Shown: positions 10,170 to 18,627 of the stretch, piece by piece
Layout: the number at the start of each line of letters is the position of its first letter
Position numbering within the stretch: position 1 is the stretch's first letter
The notes under the pieces: model-generated
Seen by the model: the letters and a program-made list of their open reading frames with translations, nothing else
Database searches by the model: none
What the model was told of the DNA's origin: nothing
Origin: an uncultured Pelagibacteraceae bacterium
GTDB lineage: Bacteria > Pseudomonadota > Alphaproteobacteria > Pelagibacterales > Pelagibacteraceae
Length of the DNA: 37,861 bases
Direction: 5' to 3'
Assembly (NCBI GenBank): GCA_902569725.1
Contig: CACFVG010000010.1
Location: forward strand, 1 to 37,861
Position numbers and translations under genes: made by a program

Positions 10170-10852
10170 TATTTTAAATTTTCAAATAAGCTTTCAAAGA
10201 AAAAATTTCCATCATTACTTGAAAGATACTTATCAATCATTCTTTCAGGGTGTGGCATCATACCTAAGATATTTTTTTTTTTACTAAAAATTCCAGCAAT
10301 GTTATTTAATGCTCCATTTGGATTAAATTGATCATCTTCCTTCCCCTTTTCATTGCAATAGGTGACTGCAATTTGATTATTATCATTTAAGGACTTAATT
10401 TCTTCATCTGAACAAAAATAATTTCCTTCATTATGAGCAATATGTAATTCTAGAATTTCCTTTTTGATATTTTTAAAATATTTATTTTCCTTATTATTTA
10501 TTTTCACATGAACATTTTTGCATATAAATTTTTGATATTTATTTTGTAAAAGTACACCTGGTAACAAACCAGTCTCTGTTAGTATTTGAAATCCGTTACA
10601 TATACCTAATACTAAGCCTCCTGAATCTGCAAACTTAAAAACTGATTTAATTATTTTTGACTTGGCAGCAATACTTCCACAACGTAAGTAATCTCCATAT
10701 GAAAAACCACCAGGCAGAACAATTAAGTCACTTTTAGGAATTTCTAGATCATCGTGCCAAACCATTTGGTTTTTAAAACCAATTTTTTTTAGCGCTACAT
10801 CCATATCTCTATCACAATTAGATCCTGGGAAAATTATTACTGAAGATTTCAT
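10169..10852 (-). CDS. purQ: Phosphoribosylformylglycinamidine synthase subunit PurQ (glutaminase)
   Basis: PurQ hydrolyses glutamine and channels ammonia to PurL. The 227-residue protein is a class I (triad) glutamine amidotransferase. The nucleophile is Cys85 in GICNGFQIL, and the His-Glu pair lies in MMPHPERM near the C-terminus. The N-terminal segment [12 protein letters not shown] and the loop [13 protein letters not shown] are typical of PurQ. It begins 5 nt after purS and its stop overlaps the purL start by one base, consistent with stoichiometric expression of the complex. Its length is within the usual range of 220-230 residues. Confidence 0.97.
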
Positions 10853-10857
10853 TAATT

Positions 10858-11091
10858 TTATAAAATTTTATAATCTTCAATTACTAGATTAGCTAAAAGT
10901 TTTTTACACATTTCTTCTACTTTAGCTTTTGCTTTTTTTTCATCTTCTAAGTTAACTTCGATATCAAAATATTTTCCTTGTCTAACTTGCTTTACGTCTG
11001 AAAAGTTCATTCCATTTAAGGTTTGTTGTATAGCTTTACCTTGAGGATCAAGCACTCCTTCTTTTAGAGTAACAATTGCTTTTATTTTCAT
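10858..11091 (-). CDS. purS: Phosphoribosylformylglycinamidine synthase subunit PurS
   Basis: PurS is the small bridging subunit that holds PurQ to PurL and helps form the ammonia channel. The 77-residue product shows the family pattern: the strand MKIKAIVTLKEGVLDPQGKA, then IQQTLNGMNFSDVKQVRQGK and the conserved segment YFDIEV, then the helix EKKAKAKVEEMCKKLLANL. The length is standard (75-85). Its start overlaps the purC stop by 4 nt, and purQ follows after 5 nt. Its presence confirms that the small PurL of this organism works as the three-subunit complex. Confidence 0.95.
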   Translation of the reverse strand: MKIKAIVTLKEGVLDPQGKAIQQTLNGMNFSDVKQVRQGKYFDIEVNLEDEKKAKAKVEEMCKKLLANLVIEDYKIL

Positions 11092-11873
11092 TTATTTTTT
11101 TTAATTTTAACTGCTTTTGGTTTAGAGAATTTAATTGGTCTAATATTGTTAGATTGTTCATGTAAAATTCCAAGCCTTCTAGCAATTTCTTGATAAGCAT
11201 TAATCACATTACCTAAATCTTTTCTAAATCTATCTTTATCTAATTTTTTGTCTGTATCGGCATCCCATAATCTGCATGTATCAGGGCTAATTTCATCAGC
11301 TAAAATTATTTTTCCATCAGATTTTCTTTTTCCAAATTCAAGCTTAAAATCAACTAATTTAACTCCAACACCTTTAAACATTCCTTGTAAAAAATCGTTA
11401 ATTCTTAAACATTGTTCAGATATCAAATCTATTTCAAGAACAGAGGCCCATTCAAAAGCATATATATGTTCTCTTGACACCAATGGGTCACCAAGTTCAT
11501 CGTTTTTATAACAAAATTCTATTAATGGTTTTTTCAATACTGTTCCATCTTCAATACCAAGTCTTTTTGTCAAAGAACCAGTAGCAATGTTTCTTACCAC
11601 AAATTCAATTGGTATAATGTCAACCATATCAATCAATTGTTCTCTCATATTAAGTCTTTTAATTAAATGATTTTCAATTCCGACTTCTTTTAAGGAAGAT
11701 AAAATATGCTCTGATATTCTATTATTTAGAATTCCTTTTCCTTCTATATTTGCTTTTTTTTGATTGTTAAACGCAGTCGCATCATCTTTAAAATGCTGAA
11801 TAACTAAGTTTTTTTCAGCTGAAGCGAATAAAATTTTTGCCTTACCTTCGTAAAGTTTTTTACCTTTTTTCAT
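11088..11873 (-). CDS. purC: SAICAR synthetase (phosphoribosylaminoimidazole-succinocarboxamide synthase)
   Basis: PurC joins CAIR and aspartate with ATP to make SAICAR in IMP synthesis. In 261 residues the N-terminal GKKLYEGKAKILF and HFKDDATAFN form the ATP-binding lobe. IPIEFVVRNIATGSLTKR, LVDFKLEFGK and ADEISPDTCRLWD are the family signatures for substrate and metal binding. The basic C-terminal tail (SKPKAVKIKKNK) extends slightly beyond the core. It overlaps the purB stop by one base upstream and purS by 4 nt downstream. PurB, which acts on the product of PurC, is encoded immediately before it. Confidence 0.97.
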   Translation of the reverse strand: MKKGKKLYEGKAKILFASAEKNLVIQHFKDDATAFNNQKKANIEGKGILNNRISEHILSSLKEVGIENHLIKRLNMREQLIDMVDIIPIEFVVRNIATGSLTKRLGIEDGTVLKKPLIEFCYKNDELGDPLVSREHIYAFEWASVLEIDLISEQCLRINDFLQGMFKGVGVKLVDFKLEFGKRKSDGKIILADEISPDTCRLWDADTDKKLDKDRFRKDLGNVINAYQEIARRLGILHEQSNNIRPIKFSKPKAVKIKKNK

Positions 11874-13165
11874 TATTTAAATACTCTTCTAAAAATTAAA
11901 TTTACATTTTTAAAATGAGAAGAGTAATTAAATATTGAATTTAATTTAGACTTGCTAATTTTACTCATTATTAATTTATCTTTTGATATTAAATCAAACA
12001 AAATTTTATTTTCAGAAAAACATTTTTTTGAATGTGATTGAACAATCTTATAAGATTTTTCTCTACTCAATCCACTTTTTGTGAGTTCTAACATTATTTC
12101 TTGAGAAAAAATTAAACCTTTTGTTAAATTAATATTTTGAATCATTTTTTTTGGATAAATTATCATTTTATCTAAAATATTTGCCAACCTATTTAAAGCA
12201 AAATCTAAAGTAATATTTGCATCAGGACCTATATTTCTCTCAACACTAGAATGCGAAATGTCTCTCTCATGCCATAGCGCTATATTTTCTAGCGCAGGTG
12301 TTACGTAACTTCTTACCATTCTAGATAATCCAGTTAAGTTTTCACTTAGAATAGGGTTTTTTTTATGAGGCATTGCAGAAGATCCTTTTTGATCTTTCGA
12401 AAAGTATTCTTGTAATTCATAAACTTCAGATCTTTGAAGGTGTCTAATTTCAGTTGCTACTCTCTCAACTGATCCAGCAATAATTCCTAAAACAGAAAAA
12501 TAAAATGCATGTCTATCTCTTGGAATTATTTGTGTTGATATTGGCTCTACCTTTAAACTAAGTTTTTTTGCAACATGCTTTTCTACATTTGGATTTATAT
12601 TTGCAAAAGTTCCAACAGCTCCTGAAATAGCGCAGCTAGAAACTTCATCGACTGCATCAACTAATCTTTTTCTATTTCTTTTAAATTCTTCATAAAATGA
12701 TGCCAATTTTAATCCAAAAGTAATTGGTTCTGCGTGAATTCCATGACTTCTTCCAACACAAGGTGTAAACTTATATTTTTTTGCCTGTCTTTTTAAAACT
12801 TTTAAAATTAGATCTAAATCTTTTAATAATATTTTTCCTGATTGAATTAATTGAATATTAAAACTTGTGTCTAGTACGTCTGATGAAGTCATTCCTTGGT
12901 GGAGATAACGACCTTTAATTCCTACTTTTTCAGTAACCGAAGTTAAAAATGCAATTACATCATGTTTTACTTTAGTCTCGATATTATGAATTCTTTTTAC
13001 ATTTATTTTTGCTCTTTTTCTTACAGCTGAAGAAACACCTTTTGGAATTTGACCTAATTTTTCCATCGCTTGCGCCGCTGCTATTTCTACATCAAGCCAA
13101 ATTTTATATTTGTTCTCTTCAGACCAAATTTTTGTGAGTTCTTTTCTTGAATATCTATTAATCAT
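11873..13165 (-). CDS. purB: Adenylosuccinate lyase
   Basis: PurB cleaves SAICAR to AICAR and adenylosuccinate to AMP, releasing fumarate each time. The 430-residue protein belongs to the fumarase/aspartase superfamily. The signature loop GSSAMPHKKNP at 261-271 carries the catalytic Ser. His141 in GRSHGIHAEPITFG is the proposed general acid, and HQGMTSSDVLDT near 89-100 is the third conserved region. The length matches the short bacterial/archaeal-type enzyme (about 430). It starts 3 nt after map ends and overlaps purC by one base. Confidence 0.96.
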   Translation of the reverse strand: MINRYSRKELTKIWSEENKYKIWLDVEIAAAQAMEKLGQIPKGVSSAVRKRAKINVKRIHNIETKVKHDVIAFLTSVTEKVGIKGRYLHQGMTSSDVLDTSFNIQLIQSGKILLKDLDLILKVLKRQAKKYKFTPCVGRSHGIHAEPITFGLKLASFYEEFKRNRKRLVDAVDEVSSCAISGAVGTFANINPNVEKHVAKKLSLKVEPISTQIIPRDRHAFYFSVLGIIAGSVERVATEIRHLQRSEVYELQEYFSKDQKGSSAMPHKKNPILSENLTGLSRMVRSYVTPALENIALWHERDISHSSVERNIGPDANITLDFALNRLANILDKMIIYPKKMIQNINLTKGLIFSQEIMLELTKSGLSREKSYKIVQSHSKKCFSENKILFDLISKDKLIMSKISKSKLNSIFNYSSHFKNVNLIFRRVFK

Positions 13166-15404: not shown

Positions 15405-15848
15405 ATGCTTTATTTTGCATACGGAAGCAATCTTAACCATCAACAAATGGAAAATAGGTGTGATGGAGCTAAATATTTAAAGTCCTATACACTAAAAGGG
15501 TATAAACTTTGTTTTAGCCATAAAACTCAAACATCGGTTTATGGGCATGCAAATATTATTAAAAGTAAAAATTCAAAAGTTCCAGGAGCAATTTGGAAAA
15601 TTACAAAGGCTGACGAAAAAGAATTGGATGGCTACGAAGGTGTTGATTACAACTATTATTCAAAGCATTATTTATCAATAAATGGCAATAAAACTTTAGT
15701 ATATATTCAAAATATTTATTATCTTCAAAAACCTAGTTCATCATATTTACATACAATTATACAAGGTTATAAAAACTGTGATTTAGATTTAAACTATTTA
15801 AAAAGAAAGATCTCAAACTACACTGTAAATTACATTATAAATTGGTAG
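15405..15848 (+). CDS. Gamma-glutamylcyclotransferase-like (GGCT/AIG2 fold) protein
   Basis: The family releases 5-oxoproline from gamma-glutamyl compounds, although many bacterial members have unknown substrates. The 147-residue product starts MLYFAYGSNLN, which is the YGSN substrate loop (4-9 plus). The expected catalytic Glu is Glu78 in LDGYEGVDYNYY. PGAIWKIT precedes it as in the family. It starts one base after the CinA-like gene. The stop codon TAG (15846-15848) and the two codons before it (AAT TGG) lie in the 42-bp sequence shared with tRNA-Leu, so the present C-terminus (INW) was probably set by the insertion event. The native end may have been different. The fold assignment is strong and the activity uncertain. 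Confidence 0.85.
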   Translation: MLYFAYGSNLNHQQMENRCDGAKYLKSYTLKGYKLCFSHKTQTSVYGHANIIKSKNSKVPGAIWKITKADEKELDGYEGVDYNYYSKHYLSINGNKTLVYIQNIYYLQKPSSSYLHTIIQGYKNCDLDLNYLKRKISNYTVNYIINW

Positions 15849-15880
15849 ACATAAAGGACTTAAAATACTTGCCACTTACG
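15839..15880 (+). repeat. tRNA-Leu fragment, left copy of islet A direct repeat
   Basis: This 42-bp segment matches 17781-17822 inside the intact tRNA-Leu(UAA) gene, in the same orientation, with four mismatches and no gaps. It covers the D-arm, the anticodon arm and the start of the variable region. The acceptor 5' strand and the whole 3' half are missing, so it cannot be a functional tRNA. It looks like a degenerate attachment-site remnant. Confidence 0.85.
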
Positions 15881-15896
15881 AACTAATTAGTAGAAA
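15869..15896 (+). promoter_or_regulatory. Candidate promoter of the C5 methyltransferase gene
   Basis: TTGCCA (15869-15874), a 16-nt spacer and TAGAAA (15891-15896) precede the ATG at 15916 by 19 nt. The -35 falls inside the tRNA-Leu fragment, so the attachment remnant may have supplied half of the promoter. Both boxes match the consensus at only about four of six positions. Confidence 0.3.
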
Positions 15897-15915
15897 TAAA
15901 GAATCTTAAATTAAT

Positions 15916-17118
15916 ATGAAAAATAAAAAAAATGCGATTAAAGTCATCGATCTATTTTCTGGTTGTGGAGGTCTGAACGAAGGTTTTAAAGATGCAGGTT
16001 TTAAAACAACAGTTTCTAATGATATTTGGGAACCAGCAGGAAATACTTTTAGCAGAAACAACAAAGACTCTAATTTTATTTTGGGTGACATAACTCAAAA
16101 GAAGATAAGAGAAGATATAATTAAATACGGAAAAGGTTCTGATGTTTTAGTTGGTGGCCCTCCATGTCAAGCTTATAGTATGGCGGGTGCAAGAGATGTT
16201 GATGATCCTAGAGGCAAATTATTTGAAGATTACGTTAAAATTGTAAAAGCAATCAAACCAAAATATTTTGTTATGGAAAATGTTAAAGGTTTAGTGTCAA
16301 TGGAACATGACAAAACCAGACTTAATAAAAATGATCAAAAAAAATTAGACAAAATAAAAAAACTTGAAAATAAAAAAAATGAACTTTTACGAAAAAGAAA
16401 ACAGTCAAAAAATACACCAAAAATTAAATTTACAAAATCGGAAGAAAGTCAATTAGAAGAAATTAAACAAAAATTAAGTGAGGAAAGAAAACTTACCTCC
16501 TCTTTAAGGGTTAAAGTTACTGAGACTATAAAAAAAAGATTTTTAAGCTTAGGCTATGATGTTCAAATTAAAGTTTTAAATGCAGCTGATTTTGGAGTTC
16601 CTCAAAAGAGACAGAGAGTAATAGTTATTGGTGGATTAGATGGTTATCCTGTGAAATTTCCTGACGAGACTTATAAAGAAAAATCTAATGGAAAAAATTT
16701 AGAATTATTCAAAAGTAATTTATCTGATTGGGTAACGGTTAAAGAGGCCATAGAAGATTTAAAAAATTCTCCCGAAGATATTCCCTTTAATCATATATTT
16801 ACTAAATGTGGACAAGATTTTCAAAAAAAGATCAATAAAACTCCAATAGGAAGAACAGTTTATGGTGGTTTTTCTGATGCTTACTTCAGGTGTTATCCAA
16901 ATGAACCTAGCAGAACTGTTAAAGAAAATCATGGTGGTGTGTTTATTCATTATGAAAAAAATAGATTTATGACGCCAAGGGAGCTTGCGAGGCTTCAGTC
17001 ATTCGATGATGATTTTATATTCGAGGGATCTAAAAGCCAAATTTTAGTTCAGATAGGAAATGCTGTGCCACCAAAACTTGGATATCATATTGCCAATGTT
17101 TTAAAAGAAAATTTATAA
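15916..17118 (+). CDS. DNA (cytosine-5)-methyltransferase
   Basis: It transfers a methyl group from AdoMet to C5 of cytosine in a specific DNA site, here presumably protecting DNA from the neighbouring endonuclease. The 400-residue product has motif I DLFSGCGGL (12-20), motif IV GGPPCQ (80-85) with catalytic Cys84, motif VI MENV (120-123), motif VIII QKRQRV (230-235) and motif X GNAVPPKLG near the end. The likely target-recognition domain lies between about 250 and 350. A Lys/Glu-rich stretch of roughly 70 residues (about 131-200), partly coiled-coil-like, is inserted between motif VI and the conserved FGVPQKR region. No Vsr or Dcm features are seen. The recognition sequence cannot be read from the protein. 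Confidence 0.94.
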   Translation: MKNKKNAIKVIDLFSGCGGLNEGFKDAGFKTTVSNDIWEPAGNTFSRNNKDSNFILGDITQKKIREDIIKYGKGSDVLVGGPPCQAYSMAGARDVDDPRGKLFEDYVKIVKAIKPKYFVMENVKGLVSMEHDKTRLNKNDQKKLDKIKKLENKKNELLRKRKQSKNTPKIKFTKSEESQLEEIKQKLSEERKLTSSLRVKVTETIKKRFLSLGYDVQIKVLNAADFGVPQKRQRVIVIGGLDGYPVKFPDETYKEKSNGKNLELFKSNLSDWVTVKEAIEDLKNSPEDIPFNHIFTKCGQDFQKKINKTPIGRTVYGGFSDAYFRCYPNEPSRTVKENHGGVFIHYEKNRFMTPRELARLQSFDDDFIFEGSKSQILVQIGNAVPPKLGYHIANVLKENL

Positions 17119-17123
17119 TATAT

Positions 17124-17699
17124 TTAGATGATTCTTATTTTTTTTTGAAAATCTCTAATATCGTACCAAAAACATCCAATACAGCCATCTGGTGATTCAA
17201 GATAATCTTTTTCACCTTCCGAAAAAGACTTTTCAAAACCTAGAATTTTGGCATCAAACCTTTGATTTGTTTTTTTACAATTTTTACAGAATTGCCTCTT
17301 AGCTTTATTCGCGGCTTGACCAAGAGGTTGAAAATCACTGTGCTTTTGAGTTTCTTTATTATTTACTCTAGGATTATTATATCTACCATTTTTATGATCA
17401 GCTTCAGGCTTGGTAGTACCTAAAAGAATACATCTTTTTTTATTTATTGAATTTACTATTTCTTTTCTAATACTTTTATTTGGAACTTTATTGAAACCTA
17501 TACATTTGTAACTTACAATTCTTTTTCCATCTCTTTTAAAATCAAGAATATAAGGAAAGCTATCTTGTCTTCCCCAGCTTAAGCCATTTTCTGTATATAA
17601 ACTTTTGTATTTTCCGACAAATTCAGACCTATCTACCCATCTACTTTTCCCATTAGAATCAGGTCTAGCTAATTCTTTAAATAGCTCTAGCTTAGTCAT
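17124..17699 (-). CDS. Putative type II restriction endonuclease with zinc/HNH-like (beta-beta-alpha-metal) site
   Basis: The 191-residue protein has an HNH-like core. EADHKNGR places Asp101-His102 as the general-base pair, followed by DFQPLGQAANKAKRQ with Asn131 and Lys134 in the helix. Two CxxC pairs, Cys138/Cys141 (FCKNC) and Cys173/Cys176 (GCIGCFWYD), could bind one structural zinc, as in several HNH nucleases. The N-terminal 90 residues (WVDRSEFVG, NGLSWGRQDS) match no domain I recognise. It is convergent with the methyltransferase, with 5 nt between stop codons, and is divergent from tRNA-Leu. The pairing suggests a type II restriction-modification system with two genes. The cleavage site and activity are unknown. 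A solitary methyltransferase next to a homing-type HNH nuclease is the main alternative. Confidence 0.72.
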   Translation of the reverse strand: MTKLELFKELARPDSNGKSRWVDRSEFVGKYKSLYTENGLSWGRQDSFPYILDFKRDGKRIVSYKCIGFNKVPNKSIRKEIVNSINKKRCILLGTTKPEADHKNGRYNNPRVNNKETQKHSDFQPLGQAANKAKRQFCKNCKKTNQRFDAKILGFEKSFSEGEKDYLESPDGCIGCFWYDIRDFQKKIRII

Positions 17700-17721
17700 A
17701 AATAAATTTTACTTATTACTC

Positions 17722-17750
17722 TTGTTCAATTATAAATATTAGCATAAATA
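17722..17750 (+). promoter_or_regulatory. Predicted promoter of tRNA-Leu and nadK
   Basis: TTGTTC (17722-17727), a 17-nt spacer and TAAATA (17745-17750) lie 18 nt before the mature tRNA 5' end. The -10 sequence is the same as that proposed for tRNA-Thr. It lies in the 69-bp region divergent from the endonuclease gene, so if islet A was inserted, this promoter came with it or was rebuilt. Confidence 0.45.
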
Positions 17751-17768
17751 CTCATGAAAATCATCAAT

Positions 17769-17854
17769 GCCCTCGTGGTGAAATTGGTAGACACAAAGGA
17801 CTTAAAATCCTTGCCATTTATGGAGTGCCAGTTCGAGTCTGGCCGAGGGCACCA
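17769..17854 (+). tRNA. tRNA-Leu (anticodon UAA)
   Basis: The 86-nt gene folds as a class II tRNA. The acceptor stem pairs GCCCTCG with CGAGGGC, followed by A and an encoded CCA. The anticodon stem AAGGA/TCCTT encloses CTTAAAA, giving anticodon UAA. There is a long variable arm and the T-loop TTCGAGT. The internal stretch 17781-17822 is duplicated at 15839-15880. The NAD kinase start codon follows only 5 nt after the CCA. Confidence 0.97.
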
Positions 17855-17859
17855 CTAAT

Positions 17860-18627
17860 ATGAATAAACCTATAATTATTTCTGACTCAAACAATAAATC
17901 ATTAAAGATAAAATCTTTTCTTGTAAAAAATTTAAAAAATATATCATACAAATCAAATGTGATAATTGTGATCGGTGGTGATGGTTTTATGCTTAAAACA
18001 TTAAAAAAAAATAAAGATTCATCAAAATATTTTTATGGAATAAATTCTGGAAATTATGGTTTTCTAATGAATAAATTTTCTCCAAAACACACTATTAAAA
18101 ATTTTTCAAAAGCTAAAATGGTTACTATTTCACCCTTAGAATTAATTGTAAAAAATAAACAAGGATTAAAAAAGAAATCAATTGCAATTAATGAAGTTTC
18201 AATTTTAAGACAAAGTAGACAGGCCGCATCTTTATCCATTAGAGCTGGAACAAAAACAATTATTAAAAAATTAATTTCTGATGGAGTCTTGGTATCAACA
18301 CCCGCAGGTAGTACAGCTTATAATTTATCAGTTCATGGTCCTATCCTAAGTTTGCACTCAAAAAAACTTTCTATTGCACCAATAAGTGCATTTAGACCTA
18401 GGAGATGGAGAGGCAAAATTATAAGTGATAAATCAATAGTAAGTATAAAAAATTTAAATCCAAAAAAAAGACCAATAAGCGCTGTTGCTGATAATTTAGA
18501 ATTTAGAAATGCAAAAATCATTAAAATTAAAACTAACAATAAAATAAAATTTAACTTACTTTACGATTCAAATAGAAGTCTGCAAAAAAAAATTAAGATT
18601 GAACAATTGAGAAGAGAAACTCGTTAG
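17860..18627 (+). CDS. nadK: NAD kinase
   Basis: NadK phosphorylates NAD+ to NADP+ with ATP or polyphosphate. The 255-residue protein has the GGDG motif at 39-42 (VIVIGGDGFML), then NEVSILRQSRQAASLSI with the NE/D motif that contacts NAD. The third signature is DGVLVSTPAGSTAYNLS, and near the C-terminus comes LLYDSNRSLQKKI, as in alphaproteobacterial enzymes. The ATG is 5 nt after the CCA end of tRNA-Leu, so the two are almost certainly one transcript. After tRNA 3' processing the mRNA would start within about 5 nt of the ATG. The only purine-rich stretch upstream, GAGGG, is part of the tRNA acceptor stem. The TAG stop adjoins the tRNA-Thr fragment of islet B. Confidence 0.94.
   Translation: MNKPIIISDSNNKSLKIKSFLVKNLKNISYKSNVIIVIGGDGFMLKTLKKNKDSSKYFYGINSGNYGFLMNKFSPKHTIKNFSKAKMVTISPLELIVKNKQGLKKKSIAINEVSILRQSRQAASLSIRAGTKTIIKKLISDGVLVSTPAGSTAYNLSVHGPILSLHSKKLSIAPISAFRPRRWRGKIISDKSIVSIKNLNPKKRPISAVADNLEFRNAKIIKIKTNNKIKFNLLYDSNRSLQKKIKIEQLRRETR

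Follow-up and report, generated by a model that had tools for sequence, protein, structure and literature searches.

The contig studied here, 37,861 nucleotides of DNA from an uncultured Pelagibacteraceae bacterium (GenBank assembly GCA_902569725.1, contig CACFVG010000010.1; hereafter the window), carries a restriction-modification (R-M) cassette of ~1.9 kb. It lies between a gamma-glutamylcyclotransferase-like gene (GGCT) and an intact tRNA-Leu(UAA) gene, with nadK on the far side of the tRNA. The best explanation, with a probability of about three in four, is that it belongs to a large family of cassettes, small and mobile, of which it is a worn representative. These would attach at the tRNA-Leu(UAA) gene of SAR11 bacteria, rebuild the tRNA on insertion and rely for strand exchange on an integrase acting in trans. 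An initial annotation, made from the window alone, had noted a tRNA-Leu fragment to the left of the R-M genes and had proposed a small tRNA-bounded element, lacking an integrase, that moved in trans or had decayed. The positions of the features are given in Table 1.

The family is seen at the corresponding locus of relatives. A recurring frame, map-sfsA-cinA-GGCT-[variable region]-tRNA-Leu-nadK, is found there. Among 44 loci for which both ends are available, the GGCT stop codon and the intact tRNA lie -13 to 16578 nt apart. The value of -13 nt belongs to the empty site of genome G365, where the GGCT stop codon falls inside the tRNA; G359 and G375 have tRNA halves that overlap GGCT in the same place. 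Copies within the gap consist of tRNA nt 1-39 and are mostly exact. With up to two mismatches allowed and the intact tRNA's own copy included, at least one copy of this 39-nt half is present in 279 of the 399 genomes of the genus and at least two in 110, among which G007 and G369 have half copies on opposite strands. A reversed-pattern control for the half gave no matches genus-wide. In the 149 assembled sequences all 279 halves share one strand, the opposite strand having none, and 133 of these belong to intact tRNAs. Displaced halves are perfect in 115 of 139 cases (the window's own is too worn for that count), and in 130 of the 139 at most three of the eight positions past nt 39 match the tRNA. 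There are 133 complete cassettes: 77 entries have one, 25 have two and two have three, and two overlapping stretches of G226 in the set together form an array of four. The median cassette length is 2530 bp. Partial-tRNA direct repeats, and presence, absence and differing cargo at one locus, the two marks of a tRNA-cassette additive island, are both found.

The common cassette has a regular anatomy. After nt 39 of the left half comes an arm with the tetranucleotide AGTC at +24, +34 and +44 in 49, 50 and 40, respectively, of 50 arms picked for having the repeat; AGTC resembles the arm site of lambda Int. Cargo genes begin ~200 nt in and mostly point to the tRNA. The right end is conserved over ~70 bp up to the tRNA half. 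A 47-bp consensus of this end, built from 125 sites, is matched at 40 or more positions by 103 of them; the empty site of G365 matches at 23. At least two AGTC in register are present in 108 of the 133 cassettes, a right end matching at 38 or more of the 47 positions in 117, and both in 103. At least two other types of cassette end occur. Most cassettes also carry tags, consisting of two 11-bp repeats and then AGAGAGATAA, in the left arm (~+120 to +150) and in the right end (~-105 to -80). The core of the repeated half is the anticodon stem-loop, which reads as nt 33-39 (CTTAAAA) between AAGGA and TCCTT. Sites of tyrosine recombinases usually take this stem-loop form.

Near-full-length cassettes at least 88% identical were found in different genomes in 20 pairs, and in all 20 the cassettes are more alike than the nadK genes of their hosts. 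Whole cassettes are 89-99.5% identical in hosts with more diverged nadK, nadK identities being those of the best local alignments. The cassettes of G065 and G284 are 99.5% identical and the nadK genes 77.6%. For G031 and G392 the values are 98.5% and 75.5%, with map, sfsA and cinA at 78%, 76% and 74%. The smallest excess is that of G031 and G326 (98.9% for the cassette and 97.0% for nadK). At the level of sequence, these comparisons show whole cassettes in distant hosts.

The candidate for the recombinase is a tyrosine recombinase (Int) carried by a few elements at the same site. A profile made from nine Int proteins and applied to the six-frame translations of the 133 elements found matches in four (L152, G144, G192 and G226; the first 58 elements gave the same four), leaving 129 without a tyrosine recombinase of the L152 type. 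The Int-bearing elements are 7.7-8.8 kb in length. L152 is a 7.7 kb circle with a 99-bp terminal repeat, contained in a viral (IMG/VR) contig, and encodes a 545-aa integrase adjoining the attachment site (attP) and a 781-aa primase-helicase. Both have matches among the PHROGs (integrase 4e-20, primase 9e-27), and the Pfam integrase match (4.9e-5) lies below the Pfam cut-off. Six further open reading frames (ORFs) of L152 gave only coiled-coil noise, in one of them, against Pfam, and the two that were also compared with PHROGs had no match. Residues R373, K400 and R485 of Int are shared by all nine homologues, and eight of the nine have H508. The Pfam profile PF00589 was tried as a detector of cassette recombinases and set aside as too weak; in 62 genomes its only island hit was G192, and the Int of G226 was missed. 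The same half followed by an AGTC arm is found in the Int elements L152, G192 and G144, and the left arms of G163, which has no Int, and of G192 are nearly identical over ~45 nt. Integrase-free cassettes and Int-bearing elements thus share a left arm, and the movement in trans that was originally suggested is probable. By eye, an L152-type Int homologue also follows a half tRNA-Ser(UGA) in G350 (L187, reversed strand, ORF 10533-12209), which makes it probable that the design extends beyond tRNA-Leu.

Phages have the half as well. It occurs in 23 viral contigs, and an AGTC arm is present in four of these (L152, L167, L171 and L173), all contigs of Int elements. The half is exact in Pelagibacter phage HTVC105P, and this pelagiphage and MedDCM-OCT-S35-C6 have the same 39 bp beside the integrase, with no AGTC arm. 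Several viral contigs among L153 to L174 and two pelagiphages (L175 and L176) share the 39-bp half but differ in what flanks it; phages and cassettes thus seem to have a common site.

In the window, positions 15839-15878 match nt 13-52 of the intact tRNA-Leu(UAA) at 37 of 40 positions (93%). With the alignment extended to nt 57, identity is 26 of 27 over nt 13-39 and 13 of 18 over nt 40-57. BLAST of the displaced copy against 6 kb of the window gave E = 1.7e-11, and its local alignment scored 34, where none of 200 shuffles exceeded 13; the fragment noted by the initial annotation is therefore real. The stop codon of GGCT (TAG, 15846-15848) lies inside it. In genome G000 (~81% complete) the single match to the 39-nt half is the intact gene's own. 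The displaced copy was considered as a simple left attachment site (attL) ending at nt 39, and this was rejected because homology reaches ~nt 57 and G242 has the same continuation within the left end of its cassette. Decayed AGTC repeats suspected just right of the fragment were also dropped, as the almost identical sequence of G242 at that place contains no such repeats.

Between the two copies lie a C5-cytosine DNA methyltransferase, whose nearest solved chain is M.HaeIII (1dct), and a convergent ICEA-family protein, a putative restriction endonuclease. The cargo had been read in this way from the start, and the Pfam matches bear it out. No integrase gene is seen between the copies, where the other ORFs are short and overlap the two cargo genes, as expected of the small integrase-free element first proposed. 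The ICEA protein gave no match in PADLOC and has no sequence-similar solved structure. The methyltransferase is found in three of the 399 genomes (E <= 1e-60) and the ICEA gene in two (E <= 0.001), so these genes and the fragment are not a fixture of nearly all relatives. The same convergent pair, 86% and 41% identical to that of the window, occurs in G020 (L151, G020:C7), where 3.6 kb of sequence showed no evident tRNA-Leu half; by eye, the pair adjoins further genes resembling Vsr-type nucleases and moaA. On the Pfam matches and this similar pair, the methyltransferase and the putative endonuclease may form a type II R-M system, and the cargo is presumably an anti-phage R-M pair.

Two relatives delimit the cassette of the window. 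In G242 the same left end and methyltransferase stand right after a perfect tRNA half, with 93.7% DNA identity over 1280 bp (97% aa identity for the methyltransferase). Homology begins at window position 15839, and nadK identity is ~77%. The partner genes in G242 differ from those of the window, and two partner proteins gave no Pfam match. AG-414-B08 (L274) is 89.6% identical to the left flank of the window over 2751 bp, up to position 15851 within the tRNA copy, and its GGCT-to-tRNA interval is free of a cassette. Its nadK is 81% identical to that of the window; AG-313-I15 and AG-435-J18 are nearer by nadK (92-93%), and their compared locus sequence stops short of GGCT. Genomes free of the segment, which the initial annotation had proposed to look for, thus exist in AG-414-B08, despite its similar left flank, and in the empty site of G365, and different cargo lies between the same repeats in other genomes. 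From the two alignments, the left boundary of the cassette is placed within nt 13-25 of the tRNA. AG-414-B08 also shows a tRNA piece (nt 13-26) at the end of GGCT, so the loss of nt 1-12 either predates the arrival of the present cassette or is shared. This loss supports the earlier suggestion of an eroded left end. The cassettes of the window and of G242 both lack the AGTC arm and the tags. Since its left half is missing nt 1-12 and it has neither the common arm nor tags, the window's cassette can probably no longer excise cleanly; this copy is worn and probably fixed.

Table 1. Features at the tRNA-Leu(UAA) locus of the window
Feature	Position	Strand	Basis or remarks
Gamma-glutamylcyclotransferase-like gene (GGCT), left chromosomal flank	15405..15848	+	Pfam GGACT/AIG2_2
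Displaced, worn copy of tRNA-Leu(UAA), nt 13 to ~56	15839..15882	+	Alignment, BLAST, shuffle test
Left boundary as placed by alignment: stretch common to cassette-free AG-414-B08 (homology ends 15851) and the G242 cassette (begins 15839)	15839..15851	+	
Cassette left end, tRNA nt 39 to methyltransferase start, common to G242; without AGTC arm and tags	15866..15915	+	
C5-cytosine DNA methyltransferase, 400 aa (cargo)	15916..17118	+	PF00145, 5e-77
ICEA-family protein, 191 aa, putative restriction endonuclease (cargo)	17124..17699	-	PF05315, 4e-48
Conserved right end of the cassette, the 47 bp that immediately precede the tRNA	17722..17768	+	44/47 to consensus
tRNA-Leu nt 1-39, the half that recurs in relatives; attachment core, its 3' end being the anticodon loop	17769..17807	+	
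Intact tRNA-Leu(UAA)	17769..17854	+	ARAGORN; Rfam RF00005
nadK, right chromosomal flank	17860..18627	+	Pfam NAD_kinase_C; adjoins or is near the tRNA in relatives

These observations can be joined in one mechanism. By comparison among relatives, the common cassette ends in a copy of the 5' half of the tRNA (nt 1-39), with a conserved leader before it. The comparison shows the tRNA rebuilt, after insertion, from the 5' half of the cassette and the 3' half in the chromosome, with the chromosomal 5' half left upstream, and repeated insertion giving tandem arrays upstream of the tRNA, of up to four cassettes. Strand exchange would be carried out by a tyrosine recombinase within the anticodon loop. 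The enzyme would be supplied in trans, either by the 7.7-8.8 kb Int-bearing elements with matching left arms or by pelagiphages, which share the 39-bp site. The geometry of the locus had been called odd, a view that is not supported, as the cassettes bring a 5' half and rebuild the tRNA at their right. Nor is the idea that the element carried the whole tRNA supported, since cassettes carry the 5' half, nt 1-39. The statement that simple excision would damage the tRNA is correct for the window alone, as nt 1-12 are gone; judging from the sequence, excision with a whole left copy would restore the tRNA.

The tags may form a further level of organization. The 8-mer of the tag is the same at both ends of one element and different between elements. 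Of the 133 cassettes in the enlarged set, 99 had tag pairs at the two ends, the 34 dropped including the four Int elements and G242. The element's own ends match at seven or more of eight positions in 84 of the 99, versus 13.5% of cross pairs, and none of 20000 permutations reached the observed own-end mean. Taken separately, the left-arm types A (25 cassettes of the first set), B (9) and C (8) gave 0, 34 and 300 of 20000 permutations that reached the mean. A shared origin of both ends could explain part of this matching. The first tag test retained 47 of 58 cassettes; a cassette's own right tag ranked best, alone or jointly, in only 19 of these 47, because many elements share tag classes. G101 and G248 are cargo-free shells with one tag pair, and G142 has three tag pairs around two cargo units, which suggests that tags can recombine. 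Against this, internal tag-like matches taken together are not above background: there are 19 in 428 kb (17 of 133 cassettes), where flanking DNA gave 44 in 854 kb and the cassettes' reverse strand 20. The majority are unlike the element's own tag; G142 is the sole clear case, and G226, G204 and G409 are less clear. It also weighs against tag recombination that the first genes of G116 (L140) and G187 (L109) are ~99% identical by eye within different tags, arms and shells. The boundary of that shared stretch is at the start codon, and it includes a repeated signal-peptide-like start that is seen near other cassette ends. A two-level system is offered as a tentative and rather doubtful model. 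In it, a ~270-bp shell (half-tRNA core, AGTC arm and right end) would insert at tRNA-Leu via a shared integrase, and inner cargo units would be delimited by tags, n units being flanked by n+1 matched, element-specific 11-bp tags (one pair in G101 and G248, two in the usual cassettes, three in G142). As recognition sites, the tags would decide which helper or which other cassette can exchange with an element.

Several points weigh against insertion by an integrase in trans. The right ends of G192, G144, G226 and L152 match the cassette consensus at 18 to 22 of 47 positions, the Int element of G226 has no AGTC repeat in its left arm, and all four Int elements fell short of the criterion for tag pairs at the two ends. 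Int homologues are rare (seven of 399 genomes, with a weakest E of 9e-4), and there was no dedicated search of the cassettes for other recombinase or transposase families. Loci were fetched for half-tRNA hits or for nearness to the window and are a non-random sample, and the Pfam listing of cargo covers 25 of 94 families. The sole host gene compared for 19 of the 20 cassette pairs was nadK, which, as a single gene beside the island, may itself be exchanged. Between the window and AG-414-B08, the left flank is 89.6% identical but the tRNA and nadK 80.2%. The left copy in the window and in G242 continues to ~nt 52-57, and these cassettes without arm and tags may use another recombinase or homologous recombination.

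Homologous recombination between half-tRNAs or arms, after DNA uptake or transduction and with no site-specific recombinase, could in principle have spread the whole family. It would account for the 129 elements in which the recombinase was not found, for the window and G242 type without arm or tags, for the gene that G116 and G187 share in two shells, for the resemblance of G142 to a tag-tag fusion and for the different right end of the Int-bearing elements. Such spread is nevertheless unlikely, given that the junction falls at nt 39 in 130 of 139 displaced halves and that the 5' halves are displaced in an orderly way. The AGTC repeats at fixed 10-bp positions and the left arms common to Int elements point to an integrase, and a 39-bp repeat is generally considered short for homologous recombination. 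An origin of the modules as remains of pelagiphage prophages or satellites, stripped of phage genes and with R-M genes as prophage cargo, fits the pelagiphage attP of the same 39 bp beside an integrase, as well as viral contig L155, where a cassette right end is directly followed by a different arm. The absence of the AGTC arm from HTVC105P, MedDCM-OCT-S35-C6 and 19 of the 23 viral contigs, the other four being those of Int elements, makes this origin quite improbable, and compact cassettes with both ends intact in many genomes are unlike random decay. There remains an ordinary tandem duplication or tRNA decay as the source of the 42-bp match, with the R-M genes as an old vertical insertion. 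The left copy of the window is indeed worn and longer than that of other cassettes, yet the rarity of the methyltransferase in the genus, a DNA identity with G242 well above that of nadK and the lack of a cassette in AG-414-B08 render this explanation barely credible. Insertion of the cassettes by an integrase in trans is preferred over all of these.

The cargo of the family is varied. It was surveyed in 103 proteins of the first set, of at least 110 aa and with near-duplicates removed. Among the 25 listed of the 94 Pfam families are N_methyl (9 proteins), N6 methylase (4), MORN (4), trypsin (3), type I specificity (3), MmeI (2) and caspase (2). Among the 25 listed of 119 PADLOC families are mad2 (6) and several classes of R-M. 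No Pfam family matches the 831-aa protein encoded by the most widely spread cassette. The cassettes are compact and recur in many genomes with both ends intact, each holding one or a few genes that mostly share an orientation; no phage structural genes were noticed in them. Large cassettes of 11-15 kb in G409 (L090, 2002-17196) and G375 (L125) contain an 853-855 aa protein of unknown family, that of G409 also a pilin-like N_methyl protein, and the Int profile gave nothing on either. The opposite geometry also occurs, with a 3' part of tRNA-Leu beyond the intact tRNA in G204 (L111, 19171-19226; nt 31-86, directly before nadK) and G222 (L141, 1-45; nt 31-75). This suggests elements that would restore the 3' half at the same tRNA. 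Over the window, an Rfam scan matched only tRNAs and an rpsL small RNA (RF01823, 33342-33425, 64.8 bits).

Several known systems resemble these cassettes in part. Integrons likewise form arrays of small cassettes, with the newest, as would be inferred here, beside the insertion site; in SAR11 the cassette repeats are half-tRNAs instead. The L152-type elements, known here from sequence alone, are similar to virion-encapsidated satellites or PICMIs in being small, in having an integrase and a primase and in coming from a viral contig set, and integrase and primase type genes are not among the listed families of the cassettes. Gene cassettes at tRNA repeats are known in Ca. Actinomarinales (PMC7771536) and Methylophilaceae (PMC10872708). 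As described in excerpts of these papers, those additive islands are likewise small cassettes at tRNA genes of streamlined plankton, with partial-tRNA direct repeats, variable among close relatives. The repeat in Methylophilaceae is the last 20 bp of tRNA-Lys (PMC10872708), whereas that in SAR11 is the first 39 bp of tRNA-Leu. Attachment arms, matched tags and integrase-bearing relatives, found with the SAR11 cassettes, have no mention in the excerpts for those islands (PMC7771536, PMC10872708). Excerpted reports also describe T7-like cyanophages whose attP is 39 bp of the first half of tRNA-Leu, beside the integrase (PMC8776855), and a pelagiphage with a 46-bp tRNA-Leu match (PMC3861242). Their attP thus matches tRNA-Leu as in the SAR11 cassettes, but these phages carry their own integrase and the cassettes lack one of the L152 type. 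Tycheposons, in the excerpt available, are tRNA-bordered cargo elements of aquatic bacteria, 4-200 kb long, with a tyrosine recombinase (PMC10872708). The SAR11 cassettes are also tRNA-bordered cargo, but are mostly 1-5 kb and nearly all without a recombinase. That of the window is below this size range, 121 of the 133 are shorter than 6 kb, no tyrosine recombinase lies between the window's copies, and the Int profile, which covers that family only, hit four of 133. Charybdis elements, from what the excerpt tells of them, were judged to be a different thing (PMC12324425). The tRNA-Leu array of SAR11, the integrase-free cassettes that share left arms with Int elements and the matched tags may be new, as far as the literature searched extends, and may possibly be partly in print already.

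SAR11 bacteria, which rank with the most abundant cells of the sea, are regarded as poor in mobile elements. A docking site at tRNA-Leu, shared by cassettes with R-M and defence-like genes, by Int elements and by pelagiphages, would explain the swapping of anti-phage genes in such streamlined genomes. The cassette family offers a concrete attachment core, arms and candidate recombinase. With well over a hundred related cassettes seen, the streamlined genomes of SAR11 keep a busy port for the exchange of genes.

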